64,000 nt of DNA, from NCBI GenBank assembly GCA_030603495.1, contig JAUVXR010000013.1, positions 1 through 64,000 of the forward strand, read 5' to 3'. Shown here piece by piece: positions 41,820 to 46,448 of the stretch. The notes beneath the pieces were generated by a model. That model made no database searches and was not told where the DNA came from. It saw only the letters and a program-made list of their open reading frames with translations. The position numbers and the translations under genes are program-made. The first letter of the stretch is position 1, and every line of letters starts with the position of its first letter. The stretch is from a bacterium (GTDB lineage Bacteria; Armatimonadota; Zipacnadia; Zipacnadales; Zipacnadaceae).

Positions 41820-41935
41820 CCCGGTGACTATAGCGGAGGGGCCACACCCGTTCCCATTCCGAACACGGCAGTTAAGCCCTCCTGCGCCGATGGTACTGCA
41901 CGGGCGACTGTGTGGGAGAGTAGGCCGTCGCCGGG
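41820..41935 (+). rRNA. rrf: 5S ribosomal RNA
   Basis: The 116-nt gene has helix I formed by CCCGGTGAC (41820-41828) and GTCGCCGGG (41927-41935). The internal landmarks TTCCCATTCCGAACACGG, AGTTAAGCCC and GGGAGAGTAGG are all present. T6 follows directly. The last 68 nt are also present, with four changes, at 44898 onward, marking the edges of a gene island. Confidence 0.95.
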
Positions 41936-41940
41936 TTTTT
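41868..41940 (+). repeat. left 5S-derived direct repeat
   Basis: This 73-nt stretch is the 3' part of the functional 5S gene plus its T-tract. It is repeated at 44898-44970 with 69 of 73 positions identical, exactly 3,030 bp away. In this copy helix IV pairs properly. Confidence 0.9.
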
Positions 41941-41983
41941 TGCTTTTATAGGGGCCGAATGGTATAATGCCATTTGGCCCCTA
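41940..41983 (+). promoter_or_regulatory. hairpin with a promoter -10 box in its loop
   Basis: A 14-bp stem (41949-41962 with 41970-41983, one G-U pair) closes a loop holding TATAAT (41963-41968, its last base or two at the stem edge). TTGCTT at 41940-41945 lies 17 bp upstream of the TATAAT. The hairpin directly after 5S and its T6 could help end the rRNA transcript, while the duplex form could be the promoter for the two island genes. It is immediately inside the left repeat. Confidence 0.5.
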
Positions 41984-42044
41984 CTTTCTCCGAACCCGCG
42001 ACCCACATAAACACGAGCATTAGGCGTCCCCGAGGTGAACACAC

Positions 42045-42638
42045 ATGGCAGTGGACAATTACCATGACGAAGCCGAGCAAAGGACAAAGATAGGATTCCT
42101 GACCGTGCGACACCTGGAGGATGGAAGCTACCGTGCTGGCCTGCTTGTTACGGATGAGAGGGGTAGGCCGCTGGAACTTCGTGCCAGCGACGCTTTACGA
42201 CCTGACCGAATTCAGCAACTGCTGTACGGGGACACGCTGATCCCTACTATCGCTCAAGTGCTATGCGGTCAACCTTTGATAGACAGCTTGCGCGAGAAAC
42301 CAGACGTTATCGCGGCGGACAACCAAGCGTTTCTTCCTCTACATAAGGATGACTGTCCCGTGGTCTACATTCGCCGAACGGGCCAAGAGCTGGAGGTTGA
42401 CGTGGACGGCGATGTAGACCCCCAGGAAGACCCTCCCGAGGAGGTCTTACGACCAGTTGGAGCCAGATTCGATCCTGTTGTCCTAGAGTTCGCTCGCAGA
42501 ATTGAGGGAGAGGACAGACAGTTGTTGCGTGACAAACTTGCCCGCCTGCTTGAAGCATTTGACCTTGTGGAGCCCTTTGAGCGTCTTGCCAAAGCCCTCG
42601 ATATGCTCCACGAGCAGCAATCTAACAAGGGAGCATAG
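42045..42638 (+). CDS. uncharacterised 197-aa protein coupled to the SNF2-Mrr gene
   Basis: ATG 42045 follows GAGGTGA by 6 nt. The 197-aa soluble, acidic protein begins with a beta-rich half (TKIGFLTVRHLEDGSYRAGL, LVTDERGRPLELRAS, ALRPDRIQQLLYGDTLIPTI). An acidic linker (VDVDGDVDPQEDPPEE) and a helical C-terminus with charged heptads (about 145-193) follow. I recognise no named domain. Its stop is 5 bp from the next start, so the two proteins are made together. It may be a specificity, sensor or regulatory partner of the helicase-nuclease; that is inference from context. Confidence 0.8.
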   Translation: MAVDNYHDEAEQRTKIGFLTVRHLEDGSYRAGLLVTDERGRPLELRASDALRPDRIQQLLYGDTLIPTIAQVLCGQPLIDSLREKPDVIAADNQAFLPLHKDDCPVVYIRRTGQELEVDVDGDVDPQEDPPEEVLRPVGARFDPVVLEFARRIEGEDRQLLRDKLARLLEAFDLVEPFERLAKALDMLHEQQSNKGA

Positions 42639-42643
42639 GCAAT

Positions 42644-44905
42644 ATGCTGCACGTGAGAGATACAGCCCTCCGATTTTGGAGCAGTTTGCCGTATGTACGC
42701 CCCTTAGGCTCCTGCGTGATAACAGAGGATCTCTTACTCGTATGGCACACTAAGTTAGCTGCCCCTCTCTCTACAAGGCAGTACAAAATCCGAACTCTCG
42801 GAGCGCCAGCTTTGACGGACGACCTTGCTGCATTTCCGCCCCCCCACATCGCAGAATGGCGACTCCTTCAAGGGCCTCTTTTGGCCAACGTTAATTTTGA
42901 TGCTTTCTGTCCCTCCTGCAATATTGTAGGCAAGCACTTTCTCGTGCGTGTGACTGCGCAGTCCGAATTGCCGCGCATCACCAGGGAAGGACCGACTAGA
43001 TATGAGCCGAAAAGAACCGGGGAAAGGTTGCCAGTACCTGCCGCGGAGTTCCTGTGGGATGCCATCCTTGTAGTTCTCCAGCCGCCACTTGACCTCAGTC
43101 TATCGAGAATCGTTGATCTGCCACACGATCTATATGAGTTCCAAGTACCAGGCATAGAGTTCCTCGCAAAGACGCAGCCCGGCGCTCTTCTAGGTGATGA
43201 TATGGGCTTGGGTAAAACCGTTCAGGCCATCGTAGCGCTGCGGGTCCTGTTTCAAGCCGGGAGGATAAGGCACGCCCTGGTAGTTTGCCCACGAAGCGTT
43301 CTGCGACAATGGGAGAGGCACTTCGAGGAATGGGCACCTTTGCTCGTAGTTACCACTGTGGACGGTGACCGGTACGTGCGTCAAGGGTGCTGGATAGGTT
43401 ATGCCAAGGCCCATGTATATTTGATGACCTACGGAATTATGCGCCAAGACATCCAGTTGATCACAAGACGCGCTGAGAACAACCCTCGCCTTCGTTTCGA
43501 CGTCGTAGTTCTCGACGAAATCTCGAATATTAAGAATCCTGGCACTAGACAATCGCAAGCCGCGAAGGCTCTGCCCAAGCGGGTGGGATGGGGACTTTCG
43601 GGAACCCCATTAGAAAACCGCCCCGGTGACGTCGTAGCAGAATTCGATTTCCTGCATCCAGAATTGTTTGCGGGCCGGACGGATTTATCCAATAGCCAAG
43701 TAAGAGATAGAATTGCCCCTTATTTTATGCGGCGACGCAAGAGCGAGGTGCTAAAGGACCTCCCTGCTCTGACGCATACCGAACACTGGCTTGAACTTAC
43801 ATCTCAGCAACAAGACTCCTATGAGAAGGCTTATGAAACCGGCGTAGTGGAGCTGAGAGAAAAGGGGGAACAAGTCACTGTTACTCATATCTTTGCACTC
43901 TTGACGAAATTAAAGCAAATCTGCAACGTAGACCCGCGCACGCGCAAGAGTGGCAAACTGAAATGGCTACAGGAAAACTTAGAGCAGATGGCCAGCGATA
44001 ATGACAAAGTGCTAATCTTTTCTCAGTGGTTGGAATCTGGCGTTGACGAGATATACCAGCATTTGCCCGAGGAGAGGACACTGAGGTACGTCGGTGAGAT
44101 GAGTTCGGCGAAACGTGAGGCGGTAGTGGAACGGTTCCGGAGTGACCCAGATAAGAACGTTCTTCTCCTAACCTACGGAAGCGGGGGGCACGGCCTGAAT
44201 CTACAGGCAGCAAATTATGTGATATTGTTTGACCATTGGTGGAATCCGGCGACTGAAAAGCAGGCTGTGGACAGAACTCATCGCATAGGACAGACGAAAC
44301 CGGTATTTGTATATGACCTATGGATAAAGAATACAGTTGAGGAGAAAATATACCAGATTCTGGAGGATAAGCAGCAGCTTTTTGCTGAAGTAATAGACTC
44401 GCTTGCTGTTGGTGGGGCCGAACGTACCGGGCTCAGCGAGGAGGACTTGTTTGGACTATTCGATCTTACACCTCCTCGGAGCGAAAGAGAGAAGAAGAAG
44501 CCCACAGTTCAGTATCTACTTGCCCTTACTCCCGATCAATTTGAAGAGTTGCTTGCTCGTATTTACAGACAAACTGGATATGATGTCAGAGTCACTCCTG
44601 CCACGAGAGACCAAGGCATAGACGTGATTGCTCACAAACAGGACGCCCTAAACCCAGAGTGCATCGCCATTCAGTGCAAGAACCATAGAGCACCTATCGG
44701 TCGCCCAGACGCACAACGCTTTCTTGGTGCAGTGACGGACCCGAAGTATTCGCAAGCTATTCTCGTTGCTACGGCCGGCTTCACGCATGATTGCGAGGAG
44801 TTTGCCCGGAAACAAGGGCGTCTCAAGCTGGTAGACGGCCAGCATCTCTGTGACCTCATGCAGGACCTGGAAATCTCGCTTCGTACGGAAGAGTTGAGCA
44901 GTTAA
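42644..44905 (+). CDS. SNF2-family helicase fused to a C-terminal Mrr-type restriction endonuclease domain
   Basis: The 753-aa protein has an unrecognised N-terminal domain (1-160, with CPSC at 89-92). The SNF2 ATPase core (about 165-590) shows motif I DDMGLGKT (Lys191), motif II DEIS (291-294, in place of DEAH/DEAQ), motif III LSGTPLENR, motif IV LIFSQW, motif V GSGGHGLNL and motif VI DRTHRIGQ. An Mrr nuclease domain (about 625-740) follows with GIDV (Asp660) and IQCK (Gln677, Lys679), the D-QxK active site. This is the make-up of ATP-driven anti-phage or type IV restriction proteins. The stop codon TAA lies inside the right 5S repeat. Confidence 0.92.
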   Translation: MLHVRDTALRFWSSLPYVRPLGSCVITEDLLLVWHTKLAAPLSTRQYKIRTLGAPALTDDLAAFPPPHIAEWRLLQGPLLANVNFDAFCPSCNIVGKHFLVRVTAQSELPRITREGPTRYEPKRTGERLPVPAAEFLWDAILVVLQPPLDLSLSRIVDLPHDLYEFQVPGIEFLAKTQPGALLGDDMGLGKTVQAIVALRVLFQAGRIRHALVVCPRSVLRQWERHFEEWAPLLVVTTVDGDRYVRQGCWIGYAKAHVYLMTYGIMRQDIQLITRRAENNPRLRFDVVVLDEISNIKNPGTRQSQAAKALPKRVGWGLSGTPLENRPGDVVAEFDFLHPELFAGRTDLSNSQVRDRIAPYFMRRRKSEVLKDLPALTHTEHWLELTSQQQDSYEKAYETGVVELREKGEQVTVTHIFALLTKLKQICNVDPRTRKSGKLKWLQENLEQMASDNDKVLIFSQWLESGVDEIYQHLPEERTLRYVGEMSSAKREAVVERFRSDPDKNVLLLTYGSGGHGLNLQAANYVILFDHWWNPATEKQAVDRTHRIGQTKPVFVYDLWIKNTVEEKIYQILEDKQQLFAEVIDSLAVGGAERTGLSEEDLFGLFDLTPPRSEREKKKPTVQYLLALTPDQFEELLARIYRQTGYDVRVTPATRDQGIDVIAHKQDALNPECIAIQCKNHRAPIGRPDAQRFLGAVTDPKYSQAILVATAGFTHDCEEFARKQGRLKLVDGQHLCDLMQDLEISLRTEELSS

Positions 44906-44970
44906 GCCCTCCTGCGCCGATGGCACTGCACGGGCGACTGCGGGGGAGAGTAGGTCGTCGCCGGGTTTTT
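44898..44970 (+). repeat. right 5S-derived direct repeat (5S fragment)
   Basis: This is a partial second copy of the 5S 3' end with four substitutions relative to 41868-41940. Two of them break pairs in helix IV, and the 5' half of 5S is absent, so it cannot be a functional rRNA. It contains the last codon bases and stop of the SNF2-Mrr gene and ends in T5, which may serve as that gene's terminator. Confidence 0.9.
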
Positions 44971-45042
44971 CGTTCGTCGGTACGCTCCGTTTTGGCCACT
45001 CTACGCACGTGTTTGGGCCCTCTCCGTCGTGACCCCTTTCAG

Positions 45043-45072
45043 TTGACTTTTGCCCCCTAAATAGAGTATAAT
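45043..45072 (+). promoter_or_regulatory. promoter downstream of the island
   Basis: TTGACT (45043-45048), 18 bp and TATAAT (45067-45072) give a good promoter for the small protein and the presenilin-like gene. The leader is about 85 nt. Confidence 0.75.
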
Positions 45073-45162
45073 TCTGAGGCTCAGACGGTCTATATCTGAT
45101 AAACTGTCGTCGGACGAGAGGCTCTCATAACGTCATGTATCGTCCGAGGAGTTTGAGAATAT

Positions 45163-45507
45163 ATGGAGACTTTGGTCCAGAAGATCCGCGATATCTTCTG
45201 GGGCCAGCCCAGCGAAAACGGCAACGGGATGGCTCCGGCAATGCGGATCACCGTACAATGTGACTGCGGCGAGCAAATCTCAACACGCATCGAAAAAGCA
45301 TACGAGCTACAAGAGCAATATCTGCAGGCCTCTGATAACGACAAAGATAAACCACCAGCCATCGCCGGCTATCTGTTGAGAAAAGAGCTCGTCGGTAACT
45401 GCTGCCAGAACCCAGTGCGGGTTATCGTGCATTTCGACGCCGAAAGGTGTCCGGCTGACCACAGTATCGAGGGCGGCGAGTGGGTCTCGGCCGAAGAATG
45501 CCTGTAA
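45163..45507 (+). CDS. small cysteine-containing protein of unknown function
   Basis: This 114-aa soluble protein begins at ATG 45163 with GAGGAG 11 nt upstream. Cysteines occur as CDC (about 34-36), a CC pair (about 80) and two single Cys near 96 and 113, which might bind a metal. GYLLRKELVGNCCQNPVRVI and a D/K-rich loop (SDNDKDK) are the clearest features. I do not recognise the family. It is followed after 41 bp by the presenilin-like gene and probably shares its transcript. Confidence 0.75.
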   Translation: METLVQKIRDIFWGQPSENGNGMAPAMRITVQCDCGEQISTRIEKAYELQEQYLQASDNDKDKPPAIAGYLLRKELVGNCCQNPVRVIVHFDAERCPADHSIEGGEWVSAEECL

Positions 45508-45548
45508 CCTGGGGGAGTGGCTCGAGGCGTCGTGCGGAGGGATGAGCT

Positions 45549-46448
45549 ATGAGTGGCATCAGCGAAGCAGCCTCCGAGCCGCGCGGTAGCTGGTTGTTGC
45601 TAGGATCGCCGGTAGGGAAATTAGTCCTGCTGGCGATTGGCATCTATGTCGTTCTGGTCAGTACCCCCCTGATTCCCCTTCCCCCCAGCTACGGCCTGTA
45701 TCTGGTCTTGGCGGGGTCGCTCGTGGCGACGCTCCTGCTGGCGGCGTTGTCGCTGATGCTGCTGATCAATGGTGCTCGGCTGCATCTATCAGTAGCTCAT
45801 GAAGTGGGTCTGGTGGCTATCTCAGTGGGCCTGTGGCTGGGCCTGACCAGGTTAGCCGAACTGACTCACCTGCTCCAGCTACTCATCGCGCCCGTTGCTA
45901 CCGTAGTCTTCCTGCTGGCGTGCTTATGGCTGGGGAGAGTGATATCACGCCTGTTCCGGGACCGGAGCATCCTCCTGCCGGTCTGTGGGGCGGCGGCGGT
46001 GATGGATATTTTCACGGTCTACGCTGGGCCGACGGGCATGATGCTGGAGCAGCACCCCGAGTTTGTTAAGAGCCTGTCGGTGGCTATTCCCCAGATCGGT
46101 TCAGCCGCGGGCGAAGCGGGCCTGGCGGGGCTCAGCATCGCCAACTTCATCGGCCTGGGCGATTTCATATTCCTCGCGGCATTTCTGACCGCAGGAGCCA
46201 GGTTCGGTTTCAATCTGGCCCGCACGGCGGGGGTGGTGCTGCTTCTGGTGGCCGCGGGAATGACTGTGCACGTTTTCTCACGTGTTATGATGGGCATGCC
46301 GCTGCTCCCGTTCATCGTAGTGGGGTTTGTAGCGGCAAACTGGCGCGAGTTCCGCTTGAGCGCGGAGGAGAAGAAGGCGGTCGCTGCGGGAGCACTGCTG
46401 ATCGCTGGGTTGATGCTGATAATGTGGCTGCTGGTCTGCCGAAGCTGA
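45549..46448 (+). CDS. presenilin/signal-peptide-peptidase-like GxGD membrane protein
   Basis: The 299-aa protein has about nine hydrophobic helices. Two Asp residues lie in consecutive membrane segments in the arrangement of GxGD aspartyl proteases: Asp153 in GAAAVMDIFTVYAG and Asp205 in NFIGLGDFIFLAAF. A C-terminal MPLLPF (250-255) sits where the family has its PAL motif. Presenilins and signal peptide peptidases cut substrate helices inside the membrane. The YD motif is MD here and PAL is PLL, so activity needs proof. GGAGGG precedes ATG 45549. It converges on folK with 14 bp between stops. Confidence 0.7.
   Translation: MSGISEAASEPRGSWLLLGSPVGKLVLLAIGIYVVLVSTPLIPLPPSYGLYLVLAGSLVATLLLAALSLMLLINGARLHLSVAHEVGLVAISVGLWLGLTRLAELTHLLQLLIAPVATVVFLLACLWLGRVISRLFRDRSILLPVCGAAAVMDIFTVYAGPTGMMLEQHPEFVKSLSVAIPQIGSAAGEAGLAGLSIANFIGLGDFIFLAAFLTAGARFGFNLARTAGVVLLLVAAGMTVHVFSRVMMGMPLLPFIVVGFVAANWREFRLSAEEKKAVAAGALLIAGLMLIMWLLVCRS

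Follow-up and report, generated by a model that had tools for sequence, protein, structure and literature searches.

Duplicated 5S rRNA 3' ends border a small, laterally transferred gene cassette in an uncultured bacterial lineage

Small gene sets, mostly of anti-virus type, have probably been inserted repeatedly at the 3' tail of the gene for 5S rRNA in an uncultured bacterial lineage, each time with a duplicate of this tail staying behind. The case described here lies in the window, that is, the whole stretch of DNA analysed (positions 1-64000 of one contig), which belongs to a 2.67-Mb draft genome of 62 contigs (G000). The island in the window is best explained as a laterally transferred, compact defence-type cassette inserted at the 5S 3' end, and is likely one of several in the family. 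Genomic islands are known to integrate at the 3' ends of tRNA and tmRNA genes. The work of Reiter et al. (1989) on tRNA-end integration is cited in PMC2217521. By analogy, the 5S cassettes would parallel tRNA-gene islands but with a different RNA gene, a smaller size, and no recombinase of their own. The collection used for comparison comprised 15 genomes of the family and 41 of the order; all genomes compared were drafts.

The 5S-bordered cassette of the window

According to Rfam, the rRNA operon of the window is ordered 16S, tRNA-Ile, tRNA-Ala, 23S, and 5S. The features of the locus are listed in Table 1. The Rfam 5S match spans 41820-41936, and the gene ends at 41940 once the T-run is counted. 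A second Rfam 5S match is below threshold (31.5 bits) and is genuine over its 3' part only. The original prediction, made from sequence alone, was that the 3' part of 5S recurs downstream; this held. In a whole-genome search, positions 41868-41940 and 44898-44970 were 95% identical (E = 9e-27), no shuffle reached the score of this match, and no further 5S match was found in the 2.67-Mb genome besides these two copies. None of the four differences lies beyond 5S position 106, and the copies agree over their last 15 nt. The duplication of the 5S end is shown.

Table 1. Features of the 5S locus in the window
Feature	Position	Strand	Evidence
Full 5S rRNA gene, functional-looking, with T-run; left border	41820..41940	+	Rfam RF00001, 108.2 bits
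Cassette start with perfect 16-bp hairpin (41949-41983)	41940..41983	+	Hairpin z -6.6
p197, 197 aa, unknown family	42045..42638	+	No Pfam/NCBIfam match
SNF2 helicase with C-terminal Mrr-type nuclease domain (SNF2-Mrr), 753 aa	42644..44905	+	Pfam
5S 3' fragment (5S positions 49-121); right border	44898..44970	+	69/73 identity, 0/1000 shuffles
Native flank with p114 promoter-like site (45043-45072)	44971..45162	+	Promoter scan 11/12; 82% over 179 bp to G001
Native downstream genes p114 and p299, conserved junction marker	45163..46448	+	28/61 and 54/61 relatives

The prediction also stated that only an unknown 197-aa gene and a SNF2-Mrr gene lie between the copies, that these differ from their neighbours in G+C and arginine codons, and that no integrase is present. 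The ORFs, Pfam, and NCBIfam confirmed that p197 and SNF2-Mrr are the only two ORFs between the copies, and Pfam identified neither of them as a recombinase or integrase. Pfam likewise found no transposase among the cargo proteins of five cassettes. The G+C content between the copies is 52.3%, versus 60.6% for the whole window. AGA and AGG make up 32-40% of the arginine codons in p197 and SNF2-Mrr, versus 0-9% in folK, ftsH, tilS, purC, and thrC. The codon claim therefore holds for most neighbours; p114 (2/6) and p299 (3/13) have too few arginine codons to be judged. One feature was absent from the prediction: the TAA stop codon of SNF2-Mrr (44903-44905) sits within the 5S fragment.

The SNF2-Mrr protein matched SNF2-rel_dom (1.4e-40), Helicase_C (3.8e-20), and Mrr_cat (1.8e-29) in Pfam. 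It shares the SNF2 helicase with Zorya ZorD, Dpd DpdE, and DISARM DrmD, and the Mrr-like nuclease with ZorD. Distinct from these proteins, it is shorter, its partner is p197 rather than ZorA/B/E or Dpd genes, and it missed the NCBIfam equivalog cut-offs of ZorD (168/1500 bits), DpdE (65/500 bits), and DrmD (100/950 bits). p197 adjoins SNF2-Mrr also in G006 and G013, the only genomes in which p197 relatives were found among the GTDB r220 contigs. In viral contigs, p197 was not found by the search made, and no 5S 3' pattern was detected. The structure prediction of p197 (pLDDT 37.6) was unusable for a fold search. From the domains and the neighbourhood only, p197 and SNF2-Mrr are inferred to be an anti-phage nuclease system; phage protection itself is an inference. 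A lone C-terminal stretch of about 70 codons of a SNF2-Mrr homologue lies between other genes in G011 (L050 4099-4308), and is apparently the relic of a lost cassette.

The hairpin at the cassette start contains TATAAT (41963-41968) at its centre, and a possible -35 element, TTGCTT (41940-41945, 3/6 match), was noted by eye only; the promoter scan called no promoter in 41940-41983. This segment resembles the flanks that follow 5S pieces in G011 and G013, which belong to another genus, and bears no resemblance to the right flank of this locus or to the G001 flank. In several genomes, strong hairpins with a central TATAAT or TGTAAT were observed immediately downstream of 5S or of a 5S piece (examples are window 41949-41983, L091 4782-4850, and L044 5740-5800). 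Their sequence varies and their pairing is preserved; they could be operators, terminators, or recombination sites. On the native side, p114 and p299 had no Pfam match. The pair is conserved across the order, p299 is present in much of the phylum, and both genes are unknown.

The 5S-p114 junction in relatives and lateral transfer

The sequence from 44971 onward is homologous to the sequence that follows 5S in G001, which indicates that 5S formerly continued into the p114 flank. In G001, a 100-nt 5S 3' piece continues into this same flank; its left neighbour is an unrelated, apparently divergent ORF. Insertion relative to the native flank is shown. The G001 copy lacks the first ~21 nt of 5S and lies close to a contig end, hence a fully intact empty site has not been seen at this locus. 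The predicted arrangement, in which the left junction rebuilds 5S and the right one keeps a fragment, was supported by the tests run.

G006 has the same order as the window: 5S, p197, SNF2, a decayed 5S piece, p114, and p299. Its sister G004 (16S, 99.0%; core proteins, 85-92%) has 5S, a nucleotidyltransferase (MNT), a truncated HEPN gene, and p114 at the junction. To the right of the G004 cargo, similarity to 5S was not significant (410/1000 shuffles). One and the same 5S-p114 junction carries different neighbours across related species, and cargo exchange at this junction is shown. The order-level relatives checked have one 5S each, with an ordinary terminator-like hairpin downstream and other genes beyond it. 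An old tandem 5S gene would have refuted the prediction; no intact tandem 5S was found in any relative checked.

The cassette genes have been laterally transferred. Between G000 and G006, dS is 0.35 for p197 and 0.40 for SNF2-Mrr, versus 0.78-1.90 for seven flanking genes (p114, p299, folK, ftsH, tilS, purC, and thrC). The cassette values are close to the G004-G006 distance (0.15-0.37), which places the arrival of the cassette in at least one of the lineages well after the species had separated; they are too low for purely vertical inheritance, which was rejected. With dN of 0.11 for p197 (dN/dS about 0.3) and 0.10 for SNF2-Mrr, both genes are under purifying selection (dN/dS about 0.25-0.3). 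For the MNT gene beside 5S in G004 and G011, which are of different genera, dS is 0.70; core genes between the genera (G000-G008) have dS of at least 1.56, some being saturated.

The same genes also occur in G008 and G013 at other loci, without a recognisable 5S piece. This counts against the preferred explanation. Relatives carrying the same genes without a downstream 5S fragment had been named as a refutation; since these lie at other loci, insertion at the window locus is not refuted. A candidate decayed 5S remnant before p197 in G013 (C43) was rejected as not significant (50/1000 shuffles).

Stacked units and 5S pieces at other loci

In G011, of the sister genus, several units stand in a row, namely 23S, 5S, ~250 bp, 5S 68-121, a GH39-like lipoprotein gene, 5S 99-121, MNT, HEPN, 5S 39-121, and nth. 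Two tail types alternate along this array: GGTCATC...AATTTGTC at 5S and at the 99-121 piece, and GGCCGTC...AATTTTTGC at the 68-121 and 39-121 pieces. Such alternation is expected from stacked insertion if each unit carries its own tail. The inferred order of insertion is MNT-HEPN first, the GH39 unit next, and the empty unit last. The HEPN gene takes its TAA stop codon from the 5S piece.

5S pieces also border restriction-modification (R-M) pairs at two non-rRNA loci. In G006 (C6), the order is g368, 5S 98-120, an N6/N4 methyltransferase, a type II restriction enzyme (PADLOC, E = 2e-49), 5S 14-85, and ffh. The two genes that flank this pair in G006 lie only ~200-260 bp apart in G000 and G001, with no cargo and no significant 5S similarity; the ffh site is empty in both genomes. 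In G006, the left piece corresponds to the 3' end of 5S and the right piece covers its 5' and middle portions, an arrangement expected if a circle opened within 5S between positions 85 and 101. GAGTAG, the native gene end upstream of ffh in G000 and G001, is also 5S 99-104 (by inspection). In G013 (C170), the order is a NosL-like gene, 5S 57-121, a PLD-family protein gene, an N6/N4 methyltransferase gene, an exact 14-nt 5S tail, and a LysE-family gene; the syntenic position in G011 has a 5S piece without cargo. The pieces on both sides of the two R-M pairs are same-strand, and all were unmatched by 1000 shuffles. In the family, every cassette flanked by 5S pieces carries defence-type genes except for the GH39 unit and the empty unit.

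In G005, a partial gene for another N6/N4-type DNA methyltransferase was observed directly upstream of ffh (L131 5740-6310), the position that the R-M pair occupies in G006 and that is vacant in G000 and G001. No 5S piece was seen in this upstream region, where the contig ends. A second defence hotspot may lie in front of ffh.

The original prediction suggested searching for other genes enclosed by a 5S gene and a 5S 3' fragment; such cases were found in G006, G011, and the distant G049. The phenomenon is broader than the single island claimed. In a phylum survey of 171 genomes, G049 was the only genome outside the family with an inner 5S 3' fragment among those sequence-checked. There (L099 1-1986), 5S at the contig start is followed by a 534-aa sigma-factor/WD40-like ORF on the opposite strand and a 5S 3' piece (43-114); the case is distant and apparently independent, and its cargo is not of defence type. 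Apparent 5S fragments in G027 (C248) and G060 (C158 and C178), as well as the first G049 copy, were contig ends. A pattern scan of the 15 family genomes for extra 5S tails gave, beyond the known ones, matches at about the control frequency; one of them, in L144, was unrelated on inspection.

Two explanations without insertion are considered unlikely. The first is that the 5S 3' piece has been retained by selection as a transcription terminator for the preceding gene and is no insertion mark. Pieces begin 0-44 nt from a same-strand stop codon in G000, G006 (two loci), G011, and G013, and both SNF2 of G000 and HEPN of G011 obtain TAA from 5S. However, the fragment was not called by the terminator scan, its fold is no better than that of shuffles (z 0.37), the neighbouring ORF is divergent in G049 and apparently in G001, and bordering on both sides is left unexplained. 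The second is old redundancy, in which an ancestral second 5S gene or rRNA operon at p114 was lost or eroded from its 5' side and trapped unrelated genes. The right pieces are always at the native flank and 5'-truncated, and some other bacteria are known to have extra 5S genes, Helicobacter pylori 26695 being one example (PMC3091624). Against it, a whole-operon search of seven genomes returned matches in the tRNA region and the 5S pieces alone, without any stray piece of 16S or 23S; a lost rRNA operon was rejected on this ground. In addition, there is one 5S per order relative checked, the cargo at the junction is exchanged and laterally transferred, and 5S pieces flank R-M pairs on both sides at non-rRNA loci.

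Mechanism, known systems, and significance

Under insertion, the preferred explanation, a cassette would consist of one or two genes behind their own 5S 3' tail, usually with a hairpin or promoter. Recombination near the resident 5S 3' end would let the incoming tail complete the resident 5S, and a second, 5'-truncated copy would stay at the far end, where it can provide a stop codon. Circles or similar intermediates are inferred to be the mobile form of the units. The crossover may lie within the last ~20-25 nt of 5S; this is suggested, not proven, by the layout of the ffh pieces, the GAGTAG match, the G013 C170 pieces, and the identical last 15 nt in the window. The agent would be an enzyme acting in trans, such as a resident tyrosine recombinase, or host homologous recombination, and the choice remains open. 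Tyrosine recombinases were present in all seven genomes searched (counted, unclassified), none linked to a cassette.

Several points weigh against this explanation. The 5' ends of the 5S pieces vary widely (about 14, 22, 39, 49, 54, 57, 62, 68, and 99); from a fixed attachment core, such variation would be expected only if the ends had eroded afterwards. At the window locus, an empty site in fully intact form was not seen, the genomes are drafts, and no recombinase is linked to a cassette.

A mechanistic sub-rival is that RecA-dependent homologous recombination alone is at work: an incoming 5S end from another strain, with cargo, recombines with the resident 23S/5S, without a site-specific step. 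The variable right ends would then be one-sided or illegitimate joins, and the hotspot would merely reflect 5S conservation. The variable 5' ends, the lateral transfer between congeners, and the precedent of SAR11 HVR2 between 23S and 5S (PMC2217521) support this view, as does the 23S-5S spacer of G006, which is mostly like that of G000 and unlike that of its sister G004. However, R-M cassettes with 5S pieces lie at ffh and LysE, sites that lack 5S homology in relatives; the small size and the defence content recur; and the 5S body of G006 is of the sister type (98% to G004, 92% to G000) despite a G000-like downstream flank. On balance, we lean slightly against the RecA-only view. The 23S-5S spacer of G004 (L044 5309-5624), which differs from those of G000 and G006, was observed to be enlarged to 316 bp, with short GC-rich repeat-like sequences.

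The original prediction that 5S serves as an attachment site held in part: insertion at 5S is supported, and a site for a dedicated integrase is not shown. In the open-access literature searched, no publication was found to report 5S as the attachment site of an integrase. A bolder reading, possible at present, is a distinct kind of cassette exchange in which a trans-acting recombinase uses the 5S 3' end as its recombination site. Cassettes would then carry a 5S-derived site, stack in an integron-like manner at rrn, and occasionally enter secondary sites with a short 5S-like core (GAGTAG).

The 5S cassettes share with tRNA/tmRNA 3'-end islands the RNA gene rebuilt on one side, the partial 3' copy on the other, and stacked insertions; they differ in using 5S, in their cargo of 1-3 kb with one or two genes, in the absence of an integrase from the unit, and in the variable repeat length. 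Like integron gene cassettes, they have small cargo without an internal recombinase, stacking at one site, and a structured RNA-like border after the gene. Distinct from these, they are bordered by a 5S 3' end rather than a recognised attC, and seemingly have their own promoter. The nearest published precedent found is SAR11 HVR2, which lies between 23S and 5S and whose flanking rRNA genes were proposed as zones of homologous recombination (PMC2217521). It also has variable cargo beside 5S (PMC2217521; PMC3815206), but it is 48 kb long, carries mainly cell-surface genes, and sits between 23S and 5S; duplicated 5S 3' ends are not described in the relevant sections of the two papers. An additional 5S that is not accompanied by a 23S is present in H. 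pylori 26695 (PMC3091624). The extra copy is linked to a plasticity zone. The two cases are alike in that a variable genome has a 5S copy standing apart from 23S; in H. pylori it is an extra 5S gene, whereas here 5'-truncated copies flank defence cassettes.

Should the 3' ends of 5S prove to be landing sites, 5S fragments would allow a systematic search for defence genes, and p197 with SNF2-Mrr would be a candidate defence pair found by its location. The family would offer a testable case of how small, recombinase-free cassettes travel between species, and a case in which an essential RNA gene is repeatedly rebuilt by incoming DNA.
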